DNA of 24,312 bases from positions 1 through 24,312 of the forward strand of contig LT649468.1 in NCBI GenBank assembly GCA_900128395.1, given 5' to 3'. The notes beneath the pieces were generated by a model, which made no database searches, had not been told where the DNA came from, and saw only the letters and a list, made by a program, of their open reading frames with translations. The first letter of the stretch is position 1. Each line of letters opens with the position of its first letter. Shown here one piece after another: positions 7,324 through 24,300 of the stretch. The position numbers were made by a program, and so were the translations under genes. Source of the stretch: Stramenopiles sp. TOSAG23-2 (taxonomy: Eukaryota; Sar).

Positions 7324-8529
7324 TCATGGAGTATGTTTCTTATTTTCTTCTCCATCTACTTTAAATTCCTTCTCCTTATCAACAACATTAATTTGGATTT
7401 CTTCTTCTTTACCGAAAACATTTACTTTTTCTTCTTCCTTCACGGAGGTGTCTACTTCCGGAAATGTTTCATTGGATGATATTGCATTATTATCATCATC
7501 TGGCTTTTTCTGATACAATGGGTTATAAAATATTCCCTTACTCTGTGTTAAACGTTTTTTGATTCTTTTACGAGCTTTTTTCACTCTTGCTAATATGATT
7601 ACAGCTAATAATTCCAACACTATTGCTATAATTCCAAGCCCTACAATTGTATAAATCACTGTAAAAACACCACCACCAAGGGTAGAGGGAGCATAATCAC
7701 CAAGTCCTACAGTGGTCAACGTAACATATGTAAAATAAATTCCTTCCCAATATGTCCAATTTTCTATTAAACAAATAATTAATGATCCAATTAATACCCA
7801 TAGAAACATTACTGCAAACGATACTTTTACTTTTCTTTCCTCTTCTTTGAAATCAGGGACTTCAGCCTTAAGCAATAATGTTAATTCTTGAAATTCTTTT
7901 AAATCTAATTCATTTGATTCATCAACGTCAACTTGCTTAAAGTATTCTTCAAATTCATCAGCTGTCACTGTAATTCCTAGCTCTTTTAAAGCTGCAAATA
8001 CTTCCGTACCGTCTAAACATCCACTATTGTCAGTATCAAAGTGTTCAAATGCCGAAGCCATTTTCGATGCTTTGGGTGATAATGAAAGTGTTAAAATTTC
8101 AAGTACCATGTTTGATAAATTTACAAAACAAATACCAGCCAATGGAATAGCAACAGTGGCATATAACAAAACAAATGCTTGTCCTGCTAGTGTGCTAGGA
8201 GAAAAAGAACCGTAGCCAACAGTGGTAGCAATTGTAAACGCGAAGAAGGTGGAGCTTAACACGTGCCAATTATTTTCATACGTGCCATCTGATAAAAGAT
8301 GAGCCTTCTCTTTTAGGTAATTAATCAACGTTTCATTATCATTTAAATATTTCTTCAATGCTTCTAAATCATCTTTGTTTTGCTTAATAAGTTTTTCATT
8401 TTGATCGTATTCAATTAAATGAAATATGACACCACCAACAATTATTAATAAAAAGAATAAGATAAAATATCTCAAACATTTAATTAAACGTGAATGATGC
8501 TCTGGCCTCCATTTCATAATACGATCCAT
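7324..8529 (-). CDS. Two-pore-domain K+ channel with central EF-hands
   Basis: The 401-residue protein has the order TM1 (about 21-40), pore 1 TTVGYG (102-107), TM2 (about 113-135), two EF-hands, TM3 (about 236-256), pore 2 TTVGLGDY (272-279) and TM4 (about 288-315). Both pore motifs are intact K+ selectivity filters, and two subunits would make one pore. EF-hand loop 1 (165-176, DTDNSGCLDGTE) has every canonical Ca2+ ligand position. Loop 2 (201-212, DVDESNELDLKE) is also complete apart from Asn in place of the central Gly. The EF-hands lie in the cytosolic loop between TM2 and TM3, whereas plant TPK channels carry them at the C-terminus. The tail after TM4 is Lys/Arg-rich, then Lys/Glu-rich. 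A Ca2+-gated K+ conductance is likely; the membrane is unknown, since no targeting signal is obvious. Confidence 0.9.
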   Translation of the reverse strand: MDRIMKWRPEHHSRLIKCLRYFILFFLLIIVGGVIFHLIEYDQNEKLIKQNKDDLEALKKYLNDNETLINYLKEKAHLLSDGTYENNWHVLSSTFFAFTIATTVGYGSFSPSTLAGQAFVLLYATVAIPLAGICFVNLSNMVLEILTLSLSPKASKMASAFEHFDTDNSGCLDGTEVFAALKELGITVTADEFEEYFKQVDVDESNELDLKEFQELTLLLKAEVPDFKEEERKVKVSFAVMFLWVLIGSLIICLIENWTYWEGIYFTYVTLTTVGLGDYAPSTLGGGVFTVIYTIVGLGIIAIVLELLAVIILARVKKARKRIKKRLTQSKGIFYNPLYQKKPDDDNNAISSNETFPEVDTSVKEEEKVNVFGKEEEIQINVVDKEKEFKVDGEENKKHTP

Positions 8530-14390: not shown

Positions 14391-16862
14391 ATGACAACAT
14401 TCTATAAAAGTGAACGTCGTATTTTTGTAGCAATAATATTAGCAATAACAGTTAACTTTACTAATTTTTATTATGTCGAATCAGCTGTATTTTGGGATTT
14501 ACAAAGTGCAAACATTACAGGATATGAGGAAGAATCATTAGTATACACGCTTCAAGGATTGGTCAATAAAATAAATGAGCCACCTGAATTGTTTTATAAC
14601 ACTGGTGAAAAGAATATTGATTTTCCACAATCTGATGGTTTATGGGTTGATTATTTTAAAAAATATCGTAATATCACATTTGACAAGGACCCACCAAAAC
14701 CAATATTATGTGATTTAATTATAAAATACAAAAATAAGTTAGACGGGGCAGTATTATATAATAGTGATGGCTTCAGTATTTACCTAGCCATGACAATTGC
14801 TGGACTTGACAATTTATTACCTATATCTTTAAATTTAATAAAAAGCCATGATTGTCTTAATGAGTTAAAAGTTGTTCAAAAAGTGGAAAATTTTGCTGAT
14901 AAATTCGATGCTTACCGTTGGGCGATAACTAATTTGTTACCACGAACAAATTCAAACCTTGTATTTAATGCTGATTATTATCACAATGCAGTGCAATCAC
15001 AAGGCGCTGCAACTATAATGTCTGTTGATTACCCAATACAAAATAAAGCCTTTATAATGAATTTATGCCCACTTTGGAAATGCGACCCTATTGATTGTGG
15101 AAAAGGTGGTGGAAGAGTACCAACACCAAAAGAAACAGCGTTGTATGTAGAAATATTAGAATCAAAACCTGAATTAGTTAGTGTGTGGGGTTGGTCTGAT
15201 CCGGAACATGCATATACAAATATTACAGCTCATGCAGGTGGCGTCGTATTTTGCACTTTTTCGACACCCAACTTATCTTTTTGGAGAGCTATATCAATTT
15301 ATTTAAATACAAAGCCAATTAATCCCCCAAAACATGATTTGAATCGAAAATTAGATCACGATAAAGTCTACATCATGTTTGAAACAAATGAAGGGGATAC
15401 GCCGCGTATATTATCTTCCCAATTTACAGGAGCTTGGGTTTCAAATCATCGTGGTAAAATTCCAATGGGGTGGGCTGCAGATCCATATTTAGGGACTATA
15501 TTTCCAGAACTATGGAATTTTTATTCAAAAAATACAACTGTTAATGATACTTTCATCGATGGCGTTGATGGTGCCGGGTACATATTTCTTCATTCTTTGG
15601 GCAATCATGCCAAATCATATGAAACCAGGGCCGGAAAAGTCTTACAAGAAAGTGGTATTACCGTAGTCGATGTTGGAGTAGCCTCAAATAAATGGCCAGC
15701 AGCAACACAAAGTGAAATCGAAGAATATGTAAAGAATGCGCATGAAGGGAATGGTGGCGATCATACTAGTCCAGGAATGATATTAAATGCATGTGGTACT
15801 GCTTGGAATCAACCAATTAATTTCTGGTTAGGTGATGGAACTCCAGTAATCAATAGTGTATGTGTTGGCCCAAAAAATGATACCAGCAATGGGCATTACC
15901 TATATTATTATAGAAATTATTTAAATCAAACAGAACCGAAGAAAGATTTAGCAAGTAGAATTTCATGGGCTTCAAATCATTATAAGAAACCAAGCGAACC
16001 TTTGTTTTTACTAATATTCGGAAGTTTAGGAGTTTACGGTGGAAATTCAGATGTATTTACATTTTTGTCAGATGTTATAGATTCATTGGATGAAAATAAA
16101 TTTGAAGTTGTCGGTTCCTGGGAAATGAGTAGACTTGCAAGGGAGCTATATTATCAAAAAAACAACAAATCTGCTGGCCCAACCGATTTCATTAAAAATA
16201 TTGAAAATGCTATTGATGACATAGGAGAGGAATTATATCTAGGGTCTGGTTGTTATTGGGGTAGGCAATATGATTATGTACAAATTGAACTATCCTCATT
16301 TGGTAGGAAAAACTCTCAAGTGACAACAATTGGTGGATATATGTACGGTAACTCGACAAATAAAAATGCTTGTTATTATAATAAAAACGATGTATCTGTG
16401 TATAGTGAGGAAGGACATGCAGAAGTTGTGAAAATAAATGTACCAAAGCTCAAAATTGCTGATATCTTAAAAAAATATTTTGAATCATTCGTGCAAATAG
16501 ACACAAAAATTTGGGAACGTGAAGATTATTTTGACCTTGGGCCGGGCTATCGTGCATTAATTGGTATGAAAGGTGGTATGAAAAATAATTTTGTTATGAA
16601 TTTGATCAAGCAAGTCGATCCACATAATACAACGTTTAAAATTGGAAAAGGTTCTGATTCAGATACATTAGGAACAAACACTGTATATATTTATGATAGT
16701 GATAAATTTGAATTTCATCAGGCAGAATTGTGTTTACAATTTCACAATAATCAAACTGGTACTTATCCAAAGCAATACCATGATATAAAAACTATTTTAA
16801 CTTCGGATGGTAAATTAAAGAAAACGAATTGTCCGTTACCAGAAATTGTTGGTTGTAAATAA
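14391..16862 (+). CDS. Secreted GxGYxYP-family protein fused to an MsrA domain
   Basis: The protein is 823 residues. An N-terminal signal peptide (about 1-31, hydrophobic AIILAITVNF, cleavage near YVESA) is followed by a GxGYxYP-type region (about 33-600). Its hallmark is GAGYIF at 394-399, preceded by PMGWAADP...FPELWNFYSK...VNDTFIDG, the expected family context, with Phe in place of the second Tyr. This family (Pfam GxGYxYP_N and _C) is thought to be glycosidase-like; its activity is unproven. Residues about 614-790 are a methionine-sulfoxide reductase A domain: LGSGCYWG with candidate catalytic Cys621, GHAEVV (675-680), LGPGYRAL, and a FHQAE helix matching the YxAExYHQ region. The Cys pair in NCPLPEIVGC could be resolving cysteines. 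Many Asn-X-Ser/Thr sites fit secretion. The frame is continuous, with no stop or intron at the junction. The substrate is unknown. Confidence 0.82.
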   Translation: MTTFYKSERRIFVAIILAITVNFTNFYYVESAVFWDLQSANITGYEEESLVYTLQGLVNKINEPPELFYNTGEKNIDFPQSDGLWVDYFKKYRNITFDKDPPKPILCDLIIKYKNKLDGAVLYNSDGFSIYLAMTIAGLDNLLPISLNLIKSHDCLNELKVVQKVENFADKFDAYRWAITNLLPRTNSNLVFNADYYHNAVQSQGAATIMSVDYPIQNKAFIMNLCPLWKCDPIDCGKGGGRVPTPKETALYVEILESKPELVSVWGWSDPEHAYTNITAHAGGVVFCTFSTPNLSFWRAISIYLNTKPINPPKHDLNRKLDHDKVYIMFETNEGDTPRILSSQFTGAWVSNHRGKIPMGWAADPYLGTIFPELWNFYSKNTTVNDTFIDGVDGAGYIFLHSLGNHAKSYETRAGKVLQESGITVVDVGVASNKWPAATQSEIEEYVKNAHEGNGGDHTSPGMILNACGTAWNQPINFWLGDGTPVINSVCVGPKNDTSNGHYLYYYRNYLNQTEPKKDLASRISWASNHYKKPSEPLFLLIFGSLGVYGGNSDVFTFLSDVIDSLDENKFEVVGSWEMSRLARELYYQKNNKSAGPTDFIKNIENAIDDIGEELYLGSGCYWGRQYDYVQIELSSFGRKNSQVTTIGGYMYGNSTNKNACYYNKNDVSVYSEEGHAEVVKINVPKLKIADILKKYFESFVQIDTKIWEREDYFDLGPGYRALIGMKGGMKNNFVMNLIKQVDPHNTTFKIGKGSDSDTLGTNTVYIYDSDKFEFHQAELCLQFHNNQTGTYPKQYHDIKTILTSDGKLKKTNCPLPEIVGCK

Positions 16863-17277: not shown

Positions 17278-20200
17278 TTAAAAATTGTTTTTCTCCCTTT
17301 GGCGAAGTATAGAATTGACTGCAGAATGTGTATCCAGGTAAAAATTTACTTTACCAATGATATCAATAGCACCACTCAATTTTAATTTATTATAGACTTT
17401 ACTGTTGATCTTGGATATTTTTACTGCAATCTTTTGCTTTTTCACCTGTTTTACTAGTCTCATTAAAACATGTATGGCAGTTGAATCTATCCATGCAACA
17501 CATGAAAAATCTAAAATAATACTATCAAATTTTTGTATCCCATCATCAATATTTTCAGTGCTATTATCGTGTAAATGTTTATTCACAACACGCTTTAATG
17601 TTTCGACATTGCCAAAAAATAATGGTGCTTCAAAACGTAAAATAATCATTTTCTTTAATAAGTGTATTTGAAACATTTTATCATCGATTGCCCTATAATC
17701 TGTACTATTTATAGCACGCCCAAGTAGTGCCGTATGTGGAACAGCACTTAAAGTTAAAAACAATATAACAGAAAGACCAACAGAAAGTAATAAGCCATTT
17801 GTTATTCCAAGTGTCAACGTCAATATGAATGCCAATGCTAACGATAGAAAATCTTTTTTTGAAAGATTCCAAAGAAATTTAAATTCATCAATATCAACTA
17901 AACCAGCAACTGCACAGATAATGATAATTGCAATTACAAATTTTGGTAAATATGCCAATGCTGGTGCAAATACAAATAACAATATTGTACATATTATTGA
18001 AGATAATAATAAGCTCATTTGGCTTTTAGCTCCGGCTTTATCACTTATAGCTGATCTACTAAATCCACCACCTGTTACATAGGCGGAGCATAATCCACCA
18101 ACAATATTTGATAGCCCAAGCGCAAATAATTCGTGATTGTCATTTAAAGTATTTTTCTTATTCTTCTGTTTTGTATAAGATGTGTAGAGTTTCACATTTG
18201 CGGAATGCTCAACAAAAATGACCACACTTAACAAAAAACAATTTACAATAGAGCGGAGGTAAACATCAATACCAATACTAGGAATAGCTGGTGTTGCAAA
18301 CTTTGGATGAAAAGGTCCAATCATAGCAATATTTGAACAGGCATAAAAACCTTCTTCAGTTCCAGTAGTTGCTTTATCACTACAATATGCTATTTCCGAA
18401 GTTGAAGCATTAATGTTTGTATCTACATGAGATGGTTTACCGGATGGGCACAAAATTTGGGTAGATAATTTATTTACAATATTTTCACGTTGTTCTTTCG
18501 GTAAAGTAATAAAATTGAGATTATCAGCAATATTTTCATTAATTGTAGCAGAGTAAAACCATTTCATATAATGCAAAACAGCCAAACGTTCTTTGCAAGT
18601 TTGTATCCCATTTCGTAACTTTTTCCCATTCCATAGTGCAAAAAATGTATAACTAGAAATTGGCCAAGCTTCTGGCGTATTTAAAACAGTCTGTGACATT
18701 AAAGACAATTTATCTTTTCCGTTGTTTTCCGTTGCATCAATTGCTGTTTGGACTGAAATTTTGTTTGGGATAATAGGATTATTTCCAACATCAAATATAG
18801 AAATACAATGCAATTTTCTATTTTTCACTTCAACATCCCCGGAAACTGCATATCCTATTGAAAATGGTGTTTTATCAACAAAATCTATAACACCCTGATT
18901 ATAGTTTGCTAAAGTAATGTCATTTCCATCTGTTTCTTTTCTCCCTGCATTCCAATTGACTGTTTTCCCAAAACCTATTGTCTCATGAAAATCAGTATCA
19001 AACAATGATAACGCTTCAGTAAATATTGATGTCGTTCCTGACCCATCCTTTCGCACAATCATTTTGATACCAACACTTGGTAATAAATGTGCTAGATTTG
19101 GATTTTCTCGTTGTATCGTATCATGATCCCACCTCGTAATATTGCGGCGAAATATACGTGCAATCGTTTTCGGGCGTAAAACTAATCTTGGAGTCTCTTT
19201 GCTTGTAGCCTTGTCAACAGATATTATATCAGGGAAAACGTTTGCAAATGCACATACAGAAGTAGCCATGGTCGGTATTAATATAATATCACCCTTGTTT
19301 GTCACATTGTATTTAATAAGCGAGGAATTTGATATTTTGACGTCTGTACCGGCAAAATCAACTTCGTTCTGAAGTATGCTACTAATTCCATCTCCACTAC
19401 CAGTAGCTTTGTACTCAATGTCTATAGTTGTACTATGTTGACATTTAAAAGATTGAATTGATTCTTGATATACATGATAAGGCAAAGATGCCCCTCTGCC
19501 TAGGGCTTTTGGTAAATTAATGTCTACGCTGTTGCTATTATTATCATTTCCGTTCGTAGTAAAAGGCACAAATTGGCATGCACTTGCACCAAACAAAATA
19601 CCGACAATCAATAAGATTACGATAGGGTGGCAAATCGAAAAGCAATTGGAGCATATTCTTTGGCTCTTTGTTTGCATATAATTTTTGTTTCCCTTTTTCA
19701 AAGGGCTAAACGATGATTGCTGTAGTTGCCCCTCCTCTATTTTATTGTTATCAACAGCTGCAACAGGAATAAATGATGATGATGAAGAAGAAGCTGTTGA
19801 TTCTACTGATGATGATTTTGACTTCATACGTGGTACTATTTTATTTGCATTTTTACAATATCTCAATGCCATGTAAAACAAAAATCCTATGAGGGAATAA
19901 AAGACGATTAACATATTTGTCTCTGGCAATTTTGTAATTATATTTGGCAGCGCACTCTGAATTGTTGTCCCTTTTTTTCCAGATGATATTCCAAATACAT
20001 GTTTGAGTTGGGAAAGAATAACAACTACAGCTGCCGCAGCTGAGAACCCTTTTAAAACAGGGCGTGACACTAAGGCAGTTGTGATCACACCAATTTGCAA
20101 AATTGCCAATAAAATTAAAACAAAACCTGTCAATATAGTCATTCCAAATACGTAAGTTGCCTTATCTTCTGAAGCAGCAGAATCGACTAGTAGTTCATCT

Positions 20201-21933
20201 ACCATTGCGCCTATTAATAACGCGGGAATACTCATTGGACCTACTGCAACTTTTTTTGAAGAACCAAACATACCGTATATCAACGCAGGAAAAATGACGG
20301 AATAACAACCATATTCAGGAGCAATTCCAATCAAGCTGCTATAGGCAATGCTTTGAGGTATACCAACCATTGATATAGCTAAAGAAGCATTGAAATCCGC
20401 TAATAAGTTTTTTTTGAAATCGTACTCCCAAATCCAGTAGAAAACACTGTTGTAATACACAGTACAACAAGAGTTTACACAAAGTTTGCAAATATCTATA
20501 AAAGTAACCCCTTCGTTAAAATTTGCTTCATTTATAACTTCACTAAATTTTCGTTCTTTGGTTGCCTTTTCTGATTGGTTTGTATTTACTACTATGTCGA
20601 CATCACTACTACTGTTATTATTGGAGAAGGAACTATCAGTACTATGATACCCACGTTCTAAAGTATTAACAATTTCTTGTTTCAATGCGGATAATGGACT
20701 ATTATTATTATTATTAGTGTTTTTTGTATTTTGCTTAAGTTTTTGTTCATATTTATTTTCTACATCAGTTTCTGTGTCGCTACTGTCTATCTTTCCACCA
20801 TCAATTTGCGTTTCCTCAACTTGACTTTCCTCAAAATTAGAGAAAAGCATTTTGTGTGTATTTAACAGTTGTAATAAGCCTTCACTCATTTCAGGATCTA
20901 ATTGTGAAACTTGAAGCGCGAATATTTTCAGCAAAGAGGCAAATGTATCAACTTTTACTTGCATAATTTCTAAATTTCGAGTCGTAATTTCCAAAAGTTC
21001 ACTATCATTCATTTTAATATCACCATATAGCTCTACCATATTACTGTTTGCACTAATTTCCTTGTTTTTTACATCATCGCCACCACCACCATTATTTTTA
21101 CCATCATCGCCACCATCAGAAGACGATATTGAACTCTTAATTATTAATGGATTAATAATTGGTGCAACTTTATCTGCTATTCCTTCACGCATTTCACTTT
21201 TTTCCGCCCCTGTCAACGATAAATCTAACGCACTCATAGCATTCTGTCCCACCCGTATTGCCATTAAAATGTTTTTCGTTGCATTCTTACTTGATTCCTT
21301 AATTTTTTTCCTTAAGTTCTTCGATAATATTGTCCGTTGTTCTGCTTCTTCTTTCTCCGTCTTCTTGGCACTAGAGCTATTCATTTTTTGAGTAGCATGA
21401 TCAACTTTTTCCATAAAATTGAGAAGAGTGTTTGTATCATTATTCTTGTCAAATTTCTTCAATATTTTATAAAATCCAGTATAATTTAATTCAACAAATG
21501 ATATTAAAATGGCACTCAAATGCATTGCATCAACTTGTTGTTTCCTATTTTTTGCAACTCTAGAAGAGGTCATTTGCCTATTAATTTCTTTTGATTTTTG
21601 ATCTGAAAAAGTAATTGTTTTGACTAGTTCATTATCAAGAATATGAAAAAAGTAACTTGAAAGTGCATCAACAGAAACTGTGTTGATATCCTTACCTGTT
21701 TTAACATTTCCATCTTTAACACCATAAAATGTGCTGATAAATGTCCATTTGTCTTCAAACAAACTATCCCGTAATTTATAGTTAACTTCTTCTTTTGTTG
21801 CCGTATTTGTTTTATCTTTTTTTTCTTTTGCTGTTGATATGAGAGATATTATTTTTTTTAAAGCATTGTATTGTAAATATTTCTTTGCCCATGGTTCATA
21901 TCGTTCTTCCCGAATCCGGTTTCCAAATTTCAT
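17278..21933 (-). CDS. SPX - SulP/SLC26 - PstS-insert - SulP - STAS fusion, probable phosphate transporter
   Basis: The protein is 1551 residues in one frame. SPX domain: MKFGNRI at the extreme N-terminus, Tyr22 and Lys26 in YLQYNALKK (the inositol-pyrophosphate-binding pair numbered identically in Vtc4), and the Lys-rich helix FYKILKKFDKN (about 154-164), followed by helical and Asn/Ser-rich linkers. SulP first half (about 500-800): IPQSIAYSSLIG, VAVGPMSIPALL and four more helices, ending with a TM7 at about 780. Inserted domain (about 808-1165): a complete PstS-type phosphate-binding protein with GRGASLPYHVY from 812, YKATGSGDGISS, DFAGTD (Asp864) and RKDGSGTT (961-968); it has NSS, NVT and NIT glycosylation sites. 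SulP second half resumes at about 1220 with TM8, then GGFSRSAISDKAGAKSQ. STAS spans about 1430-1545 with DFSCVAWIDSTA. The insert lies between TM7 and TM8, the extracellular side. Phosphate import with internal SPX feedback is inferred. Confidence 0.9.
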   Translation of the reverse strand: MKFGNRIREERYEPWAKKYLQYNALKKIISLISTAKEKKDKTNTATKEEVNYKLRDSLFEDKWTFISTFYGVKDGNVKTGKDINTVSVDALSSYFFHILDNELVKTITFSDQKSKEINRQMTSSRVAKNRKQQVDAMHLSAILISFVELNYTGFYKILKKFDKNNDTNTLLNFMEKVDHATQKMNSSSAKKTEKEEAEQRTILSKNLRKKIKESSKNATKNILMAIRVGQNAMSALDLSLTGAEKSEMREGIADKVAPIINPLIIKSSISSSDGGDDGKNNGGGGDDVKNKEISANSNMVELYGDIKMNDSELLEITTRNLEIMQVKVDTFASLLKIFALQVSQLDPEMSEGLLQLLNTHKMLFSNFEESQVEETQIDGGKIDSSDTETDVENKYEQKLKQNTKNTNNNNNSPLSALKQEIVNTLERGYHSTDSSFSNNNSSSDVDIVVNTNQSEKATKERKFSEVINEANFNEGVTFIDICKLCVNSCCTVYYNSVFYWIWEYDFKKNLLADFNASLAISMVGIPQSIAYSSLIGIAPEYGCYSVIFPALIYGMFGSSKKVAVGPMSIPALLIGAMVDELLVDSAASEDKATYVFGMTILTGFVLILLAILQIGVITTALVSRPVLKGFSAAAAVVVILSQLKHVFGISSGKKGTTIQSALPNIITKLPETNMLIVFYSLIGFLFYMALRYCKNANKIVPRMKSKSSSVESTASSSSSSFIPVAAVDNNKIEEGQLQQSSFSPLKKGNKNYMQTKSQRICSNCFSICHPIVILLIVGILFGASACQFVPFTTNGNDNNSNSVDINLPKALGRGASLPYHVYQESIQSFKCQHSTTIDIEYKATGSGDGISSILQNEVDFAGTDVKISNSSLIKYNVTNKGDIILIPTMATSVCAFANVFPDIISVDKATSKETPRLVLRPKTIARIFRRNITRWDHDTIQRENPNLAHLLPSVGIKMIVRKDGSGTTSIFTEALSLFDTDFHETIGFGKTVNWNAGRKETDGNDITLANYNQGVIDFVDKTPFSIGYAVSGDVEVKNRKLHCISIFDVGNNPIIPNKISVQTAIDATENNGKDKLSLMSQTVLNTPEAWPISSYTFFALWNGKKLRNGIQTCKERLAVLHYMKWFYSATINENIADNLNFITLPKEQRENIVNKLSTQILCPSGKPSHVDTNINASTSEIAYCSDKATTGTEEGFYACSNIAMIGPFHPKFATPAIPSIGIDVYLRSIVNCFLLSVVIFVEHSANVKLYTSYTKQKNKKNTLNDNHELFALGLSNIVGGLCSAYVTGGGFSRSAISDKAGAKSQMSLLLSSIICTILLFVFAPALAYLPKFVIAIIIICAVAGLVDIDEFKFLWNLSKKDFLSLALAFILTLTLGITNGLLLSVGLSVILFLTLSAVPHTALLGRAINSTDYRAIDDKMFQIHLLKKMIILRFEAPLFFGNVETLKRVVNKHLHDNSTENIDDGIQKFDSIILDFSCVAWIDSTAIHVLMRLVKQVKKQKIAVKISKINSKVYNKLKLSGAIDIIGKVNFYLDTHSAVNSILRQREKNNF

Positions 21934-22293: not shown

Positions 22294-24300
22294 TTAAAAA
22301 TTCATGAATATAAGAGAACTCCACAAACAAACAAAATAAATATAGCCAAAGAATACATTTGAACCGCGCAATCCCTTATCCGTTTTTTCGTTCACAGCAA
22401 TATTTTGTTTCGATGGGTTGCAATCACTACTTGGTGGTAATGACCATCCTTTTTCTTGATATGCCATACGGATAATTTCCATGTCAAGATCTGATTTCCC
22501 ACATGCTTTACATGCAATTTCAAATTGTTTATCAGCGGCAGCCTTGTCGTTTTTCTTGATTTGTAACTCCACTAAATATGACTCAGCAAGGCAAAAATTT
22601 GGAATTAATTGCAATGCTTTGTCATAATACATTTTTGATTTATCCAAATCACTTGATGCACGTTGTCGATATAATACACCTAAATCAGTATATACATAAC
22701 CTAAACATGTGGTATTACTCAAATGCGATGGAATCAACCAATCTGAACAAGATAAAGGTGAATTAGATGCGATGGACAAAAGCATTTGTTCCAACGTATT
22801 TGCATTACTTTCCGGTATCGCAGTAGTATCACCTTTGTATACCTTAACGGATGCTTTCATATACTCTGCTAACGTGGAACCACCTGCTTGGGAAATGGAA
22901 CTTGTTTTACGAGTATCAATACCATGTACACGAATTCTCTGTTTACCTTCCGAACATGCTTTACCAACATTACATGAGAAAAATCTGGTACCCATGGTTT
23001 CACATTTGAATGTAAAATTTCCGCTATTACCAACATCAGTTCGTTTTGCACTGATGGAGAAATCACAATCGATATAAGTTGGATAGCTGTATACCTCATG
23101 AACATCATGTTGAATATTTGTATTCGTCCAACTAATTTCAACTGTCTGACCAATTTCACAATGTACTAATGGCATCTCAGAAACATTGAACCATTTTGCA
23201 CCTGCTGGAACCATATAATCCCAATTAATAACCTGTTTACTTGTCTGCACTAATGCTTGAGAAGATGTACCACTGGAAGCTGTTGTTGGTGATGCAATTG
23301 TTGGCGATGCAGTAGTTGTTCCACAAAATTGTGTTTCTGGGGAGCTTGGACAGGCTGTACCTCCATTACTAGGCTGTGTCGATACGGTGTATGTTCTACT
23401 TTGTGAATTACTACTACATGTGGACCATGTTGACCATGAACCAGCACAATTTACAGGATTGCCAGTACAACTTTGTGATTCTGGTGATGATGGACATGCC
23501 GTACCACCATTACTAGGTTGTGTTGTTACCGTATATGTTCTACTTTGTGTACTGCTACTACAAGAAGACCAGGAGGACCATGAACCAGCACAATTTACAG
23601 CATCAGTACAGCTTTGTAATTCTGGTGATGATGGACATGCCGTACCACCATTACTTGGTTGTGTTGTTACCGTATATGTTCTGCTTTGTGTACTACCACT
23701 GCAGGTCGACCAAGATGACCATGAACCAGCACAATTTACAGGATCAGTACAACTTTGTGATTCTGGTGATGATGGACATGCCGTACCACCATTACTTTGT
23801 TGTGTTGTTACCGTATATGTTCTACTTTGTGTACTGCCACTGCAAGTCGACCAGGAGGACCATGAACCAGCACAATTTACAGGATCAGTACAACTTTGTG
23901 ATTCTGGTGATGATGGACATGCCGTACCACCATTACTTGGTTGTGTTGTTACCGTATATGTTCTACTTTGTGTACTACCACTGCAGGTCGACCAAGATGA
24001 CCATGAACCAGCGCAGTTTACAGCAGGAGCTGCAGCAGGCGCAGGGGCAGGGGCAGGACTTGGAGATGGCGATGGACTACCTTTACTACCAGGTAATTTT
24101 CTAGCTTTTGCTCTTAAATTCAATAACGTTCTATCATATTGATTATTCTTAGGTGCATTAGCTATTTTTTTCGTTTTTCCATTTGGTAATGTAATAGATA
24201 TTACTTTTGCTTTCAATTGCTGTGCATGTACAATCGATGAATATATGATGCATAGATTCAACAACAATATTTTTAATAATTTGCAATTCATATTTTTCAT
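22294..24300 (-). CDS. Secreted TSP1(x5) - cupredoxin-like - TPR protein
   Basis: The protein is 668 residues. The signal peptide (about 1-26, ending SSIVHA) leads into a basic stretch and a Pro/Ser/Ala spacer (about 74-93). Five thrombospondin type-1-like repeats follow (94-327), each with WSxWSxC, RTYTV and two more Cys; units 1 to 4 are almost identical. After a Thr/Ser-rich linker comes a phytocyanin-like cupredoxin domain (about 358-460). It keeps His398 and Cys443, but the second His is Ala448 (GKAC where phytocyanins have PGHC) and no Met follows, so copper binding is doubtful. Residues about 535-610 look like tetratricopeptide repeats (YVYTDLGVLYRQ... YYDKALQLIPN). The C-terminus ends in a hydrophobic segment (VFFGYIYFVCLWSSLIF), either a membrane anchor or a GPI-attachment signal. 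A cell-surface adhesion or scaffold role is likely; the function is not known. Confidence 0.82.
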   Translation of the reverse strand: MKNMNCKLLKILLLNLCIIYSSIVHAQQLKAKVISITLPNGKTKKIANAPKNNQYDRTLLNLRAKARKLPGSKGSPSPSPSPAPAPAPAAAPAVNCAGSWSSWSTCSGSTQSRTYTVTTQPSNGGTACPSSPESQSCTDPVNCAGSWSSWSTCSGSTQSRTYTVTTQQSNGGTACPSSPESQSCTDPVNCAGSWSSWSTCSGSTQSRTYTVTTQPSNGGTACPSSPELQSCTDAVNCAGSWSSWSSCSSSTQSRTYTVTTQPSNGGTACPSSPESQSCTGNPVNCAGSWSTWSTCSSNSQSRTYTVSTQPSNGGTACPSSPETQFCGTTTASPTIASPTTASSGTSSQALVQTSKQVINWDYMVPAGAKWFNVSEMPLVHCEIGQTVEISWTNTNIQHDVHEVYSYPTYIDCDFSISAKRTDVGNSGNFTFKCETMGTRFFSCNVGKACSEGKQRIRVHGIDTRKTSSISQAGGSTLAEYMKASVKVYKGDTTAIPESNANTLEQMLLSIASNSPLSCSDWLIPSHLSNTTCLGYVYTDLGVLYRQRASSDLDKSKMYYDKALQLIPNFCLAESYLVELQIKKNDKAAADKQFEIACKACGKSDLDMEIIRMAYQEKGWSLPPSSDCNPSKQNIAVNEKTDKGLRGSNVFFGYIYFVCLWSSLIFMNF
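23320..24021 (-). repeat. Tandem array of 141-bp TSP1-encoding units
   Basis: Five coding units are spaced 141, 141, 141 and 144 bp apart, measured by the CCAGC(A/G)CA(A/G)TTTAC landmark at 24008, 23867, 23726, 23585 and 23441. The extra codon lies before the last unit. Units 1-4 in protein order are nearly identical in DNA, and the last has diverged most. This suggests recent duplication or gene conversion. Confidence 0.92.

Follow-up and report, generated by a model that had tools for sequence, protein, structure and literature searches.

We describe a large membrane protein encoded in a 24,312-nucleotide stretch of DNA from Stramenopiles sp. TOSAG23-2 (contig LT649468.1 of assembly GCA_900128395.1, positions 1 to 24,312; hereafter the window), in which an SPX domain, an SLC26/SulP carrier, a PstS-type phosphate-binding domain and a STAS domain lie in one chain. 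Most likely it is a phosphate importer that works alone and regulates itself; we assign a probability of about 0.62 to the reading as an SLC26/SulP-family phosphate carrier that has acquired both a solute-binding protein and a cytosolic gate of its own.

Four modules in one open reading frame

The coding sequence occupies positions 17278..21933 on the reverse strand, as do all modules below, and its frame translation starts with ATG and runs for 1551 residues with zero internal stops. From the N terminus it comprises the SPX domain (residues 1-177; 21403..21933), assigned by Pfam (PF03105), matches to OsSPX2 and XPR1 and alignment; a linker that is poorly conserved by module-wise identity (181-490; 20464..21393); the first SulP/SLC26 repeat with transmembrane helices (TM) 1 to 7 (497-785; 19579..20445); the PstS domain, inserted in the TM7-TM8 loop and delimited by Pfam and PstS alignment (807-1168; 18430..19515); the second repeat with TM8-TM14 (1222-1397; 17743..18270), both repeats being placed by Pfam, PDB alignment and a structure model; and the STAS domain (1428-1545; 17299..17652), placed by Pfam (PF01740) and PDB alignment. 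All four Pfam domains exceed their curated cut-offs: SPX (E 8.2e-10, two stretches, 39.7 bits against 27.8), Sulfate_transp (PF00916; E 3.7e-67, two stretches, 227.2 bits against 23.2), PBP_like_2 (PF12849; E 5.9e-18, residues 811-1074, between the two Sulfate_transp stretches) and STAS (E 9.5e-17, residues 1428-1538, 61.1 bits against 22.6). The four-module architecture that the initial annotation had read from this frame is thus confirmed, and every hallmark residue it had named is found in the translation, namely Y22, K26 and KILKKFDK (156-163) in SPX, D864 and RKDGSGTT (961-968) in PstS, GGFSRSA (1289-1295) in SulP and DST (1483-1485) in STAS.

The order recurs elsewhere. Homologue searches scored only the 8000 candidates with most shared words, so that further members may exist; started from the window protein, they returned eight matches, three of which (P0001, P0002 and P0003) carry the same four Pfam domains and five only some of them. 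P0001, the representative of a public 60-member sequence cluster, is 99% identical to the window protein and lies on another public contig, and P0002, named in the sequence database solely after its PstS part, and P0003 are each 35% identical to it over the full length; their counterparts of GGFSRSA and DST are GGFSRTA and DAT/DSS. A search started from P0003 gave five matches; besides recovering P0002 and the query itself, it added two SulP-STAS proteins and P0010, which has SPX, the SulP N-half, PBP_like_2 and TM8; its gene model stops inside TM8, with TM9-14 and STAS beyond it. P0002, P0003 and P0010 are 31-35% identical to the window protein and, over the length available for each, none departs from its domain order. 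The order is complete in P0002 and P0003 and runs from SPX to TM8 in P0010, so that the arrangement is, judged by these sequences, beyond chance.

Between the window protein and P0002, identity is 35% in SPX (63/179), 24% in the linker (49/208; 22-24% across P0002, P0003 and P0010), 49% in the SulP N-half (98/199), 42% in PstS (140/336), 56% in TM8-14 and 46% in STAS. Because the PstS and SulP values are similar, the insert is by this measure under constraint much like the carrier. In trees of the PstS module (12 rows) and the SulP module (14 rows, the four fusion rows occupying under half of its columns), both small samples with some long rows, the inserts of the window protein, P0002, P0003 and P0010 form one side of a branch (95/95), as do their carrier parts (100/99). 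P0010 is first off within the group in both trees, on branches (84/87 and 85/80) below the level that the tool stars, and the P0002-P0003 pairing is resolved in the SulP tree only (98/94). Both topologies fit a single fusion followed by descent, which, with the recurrence in three distant relatives (one incomplete), strengthens the architecture first proposed from one sequence.

The PstS tree also places P0006 in one group with the inserts (100/98), on a long branch. This 1091-residue protein has an N-terminal PstS-like domain (PF12849) and, as judged by inspection, a membrane helix and a second half that resembles a cyclase but has no Pfam match; it is possibly a receptor for external phosphate. 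A search for a bacterial donor of PstS found only five proteins at E ≤ 0.001 among 1931 candidates, with 25-27% identity over 80-90% of the query. We considered and set aside the presence of the fusion in prokaryotes: scans of prokaryotic genome contigs, which used two short peptide patterns each and so give weak evidence of absence, confirmed 0 of 447 pattern matches for the PstS alignment and 5 of 124 for the SulP C-half, and none of these five loci holds a GSGT or SSGT string (four are complete frames of 578-713 residues, and L015 starts at the beginning of its contig). Two scans of viral contigs confirmed 0 of 198 and 0 of 29 matches, and a third, with the PstS alignment, 6 of 141; the two loci examined are stand-alone frames of 324 and 345 residues (L009 and L010), the former a PstS-like frame on a 354-kb viral contig with 28% identity to the insert.

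Binding sites and topology

The closest solved relatives of the insert (811-1168) are the PstS proteins of Yersinia and Escherichia coli, with E values of 3e-26 or weaker for the full-length query and 2e-27 for the insert alone. Alignment to the E. coli residues that we take to contact phosphate pairs T10 with S816, F11 with L817, S38 with S846, D56 with D864, R135 with R961, D137 with D963, S139 with S965, G140 with G966 and T141 with T967. All nine positions are invariant in 5/5 aligned rows, two of them (T10 to S and F11 to L) differing conservatively from E. coli; the equivalents of Asp56, Arg135 and Ser139-Thr141, to which the initial annotation had pointed, are therefore kept. D864 corresponds to Asp56, which presumably favours phosphate over sulfate.

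The carrier has the 14-TM, 7+7 inverted-repeat SLC26 fold with both repeats intact in sequence and model, and its best solved relatives by sequence are AtSULTR4;1 (7lhv, E 5.5e-70), a thermostabilised prestin (7v73) and rice SPDT (9u9f). The anion-site residues Q112, Y116, S392 and R393 of AtSULTR4;1 align with Q527 and Y531 in the first repeat, present in 5/5 rows, and with S1292 and R1293 in the second, present in the four rows that reach TM10; by alignment the site further includes S568 (first repeat) and F1291 (second). E1242, in TM8, is the equivalent of Glu347 of AtSULTR4;1, which is required there for H+-driven transport (available text of PMC8298490). S568 stands in place of Ala153, and Ser is likewise found in the SPDT alignment, which is a weak hint.

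The SPX domain has as solved relatives the SPX-domain proteins 2 and 1 (OsSPX2) and XPR1, and K2, Y22, K26, K156, K159, K160 and K163 are invariant in 5/5 aligned rows. It is thus an N-terminal SPX domain with a basic inositol-phosphate surface, predicted to bind inositol pyrophosphates.

Model and PDB alignments place the full PstS domain within the TM7-TM8 loop, where it bridges TM7, the final helix of the gate, and TM8, the initial helix of the core, and support its predicted position on the membrane side opposite SPX and STAS, in agreement with the earlier reading. Charge and Cys residues back this modelled topology more weakly. The Ser-rich TM6-TM7 loop (residues 698-769) has a net positive charge in the window protein, with 10 K/R against 4 D/E.

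A candidate phosphate importer and its alternatives

The substrate, the direction of transport, its coupling to H+, the feeding role of PstS, the gating role of SPX and the membrane concerned are inferred. Exposed to the cell exterior or to a lumen, PstS would bind HPO4 2-/H2PO4- and hand it to the SLC26 anion site (Q527, Y531, S1292, R1293), and the carrier would move it inward with H+ via E1242 as the core slides like an elevator along the gate. With the insert bridging these two parts, the closing of PstS around phosphate could be tied mechanically to the elevator movement. SPX would read inositol pyrophosphates and set the carrier up or down according to internal phosphate status.

The 17.45-Mb assembly (793 contigs) has SPX matches in two frames, Sulfate_transp in two and PBP_like_2 in one. 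The second SPX protein is a separate 353-residue frame, and the second SulP protein (L007, G000:C247; 945 residues) is distant, has no insert by reading and no PBP_like_2 match; its end is, by eye, the apparent start of a cyclic-nucleotide-binding domain. Absences across the assembly are provisional, as the 14 controls are all prokaryotes, intron-split genes may escape and the completeness of the assembly is not known. Within these limits we found no match to the ATP-binding cassette (ABC) permease PF00528 (controls 14/14 positive), VTC polyphosphate polymerase (3/14), ATP-sulfurylase (5/14), psbA or chlorophyll-binding protein (1/14 each, the cyanobacterium); given the last two results, the host, which its genes and genome size suggest to be a protist, is probably non-photosynthetic. 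A self-contained importer gated by internal phosphate, as initially proposed, is the best reading of the kept phosphate contacts, E1242 and the lack of ABC permease and ATP-sulfurylase matches, and it keeps the standing of a proposal.

Several observations weigh against it. SLC26 anion-site residues do not distinguish sulfate from other anions (available text of PMC8298490), and the SPX match of the window protein taken by itself is weak. The window protein, P0002, P0003 and P0010 score 329.6, 337.8, 359.2 and 120.9 bits against NCBIfam TIGR00815 (sulP; cut-off 380.45), with the match split in two by the insert (a single stretch in the incomplete P0010), and all four thus fall below the cut-off and are not filed there; against the PstS equivalog TIGR00975 (cut-off 205 bits) P0003 alone passes (205.1), the window protein (173.9), P0002 (187.7) and P0010 (96.6) being left out. 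The charge argument for topology is thin, as the net positive charge of the TM6-TM7 loop barely holds in P0002 (14 K/R against 12 D/E) and is absent in P0003 (6/6) and P0010 (11/19), and the model, with a pTM of 0.45, does not fix the orientation or docking of PstS over the carrier vestibule. The genome also has one PiT-type PHO4 carrier, so the fusion protein need not be the main phosphate importer. The main doubt is whether PstS is a feeder or may instead be a sensor, and the next is whether the carrier sits in the plasma membrane or may lie in a digestive vacuole or acidic store of an apparently non-photosynthetic protist.

As a transceptor, the protein would use PstS to sense external phosphate and to switch the SLC26 carrier, or its SPX/STAS signalling, on or off without handing over substrate. 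The junction of gate and core helices is a good allosteric position (model; available text of PMC8298490), and since P0006 pairs its PstS-like domain with no Pfam transporter domain, some such domains may be sensors; yet the anion site and the TM8 Glu are kept, so that the carrier probably transports. PstS, moreover, usually feeds a carrier, and we regard a pure receptor as unlikely. Somewhat less unlikely, and overlapping with the importer, is the same machine on a digestive vacuole or acidic phosphate store, with PstS luminal; governed by SPX, phosphate and H+ would pass together into the cytosol, in the manner of yeast Pho91. Such a site is conceivable by analogy, as a vacuolar location is known for AtSULTR4;1, which tops the PDB matches by sequence, and for several SPX carriers (available text of PMC8298490 and PMC11528361, respectively), and the missing psbA and chlorophyll-binding protein are consistent with a phagotroph, but VTC was not found in the assembly. 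A PstS-type site, micromolar in bacteria, would also saturate in a millimolar store.

Decidedly improbable is a sulfate or bicarbonate carrier under phosphate control, in which SLC26 would move another anion while PstS and SPX merely report phosphate outside and inside: the Pfam name Sulfate_transp suggests it, as do the names of most carrier-type PDB matches (sulfate, chloride or bicarbonate carriers, or prestin), whereas the lack of an ATP-sulfurylase match, the two phosphate-related modules attached to the carrier and rice SPDT, which shows that the family can carry phosphate, argue otherwise. An artefact (assembly chimera, contamination or retained intron) is hardly credible. The four-domain order did not turn up in literature searches aimed at it, but the window frame is open throughout, P0001 matches it on a separate contig, and P0002, P0003 and P0010 share the order with module trees that do not conflict, which makes chimera or contamination very unlikely.

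Elsewhere in the window, Pfam matches outline a frame that joins GxGYxYP glycoside-hydrolase-like domains to a peptide methionine sulfoxide reductase domain (14391-16862, forward strand) and, on the reverse strand, a glucokinase-regulatory-protein-like protein with two SIS domains and lid in an apparent protist (351-2423), an ion-channel-like protein in which an EF-hand pair accompanies two Ion_trans_2 stretches (7324-8529) and a 668-residue frame that has a weak plastocyanin-like match besides five stretches of spondin-type thrombospondin (22294-24300).

Relation to known transport systems

All parts of the protein are of known kinds. AtSULTR4;1 and rice SPDT, the latter deposited as a phosphate transporter, share the 7+7 TM fold, STAS and the Q/Y/S/R anion site, and AtSULTR4;1 also the TM8 Glu for H+ coupling, but their solved chains of 685 and 670 residues are too short for SPX and PstS modules. 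Bacterial PstS, of the PstSCAB ABC importer, shares the whole two-lobed fold and the phosphate contacts; here it is instead inserted in a secondary carrier, in an assembly with no ABC permease found. An N-terminal SPX on a phosphate-handling membrane protein is likewise known from PHT5/VPT (SPX-MFS), PHO1/XPR1 (SPX-EXS) and SPX-SLC (SLC13/CitMHS) carriers, and yeast Pho87/90/91 count among the SPX carriers. Our protein has no Pfam match at E 0.01 to the CitMHS/Na_sulph_symp domain of SPX-SLC carriers, having PF00916 instead, and the three CitMHS frames of the assembly are all on contigs without any match in the SPX search. In the available text of PMC12388464, PMC11528361 and PMC8717665, SPX partners are EXS, MFS, VTC, RING, SLC13/CitMHS and, rarely, other domains, and the membrane part of SPX carriers is MFS, EXS or SLC13, not SulP, with no binding-protein domain mentioned. 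TRAP transporters would apply the same principle of a binding protein feeding an ion-driven carrier, but theirs is a separate soluble protein (available text of PMC10942642), and DctQ and DctM have no Pfam match in our protein at E 0.01. A protein named PstS is listed among diatom transporters in the available text of PMC3237598. Targeted searches of titles and abstract openings of open-licence papers found no SPX-SulP or PstS-SulP fusion, and the combination of parts, in which an SLC26 carrier incorporates a binding protein, is novel as far as these searches reach.

Tentatively, and with some doubt, the protein may represent a new class of binding-protein-dependent secondary transporter in eukaryotes, in which a PstS clamp in the SLC26 gate-core hinge would drive or license the stroke by closing on phosphate and SPX would be the cytosolic off-switch. 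If the importer reading is true, an ion-driven phosphate carrier, a binding domain and an intracellular phosphate gate are united in one chain that does what the multi-part bacterial Pst system does, and one purified protein would make binding-protein feeding of an SLC26 elevator, SPX gating of a carrier and protist uptake of scarce phosphate testable.
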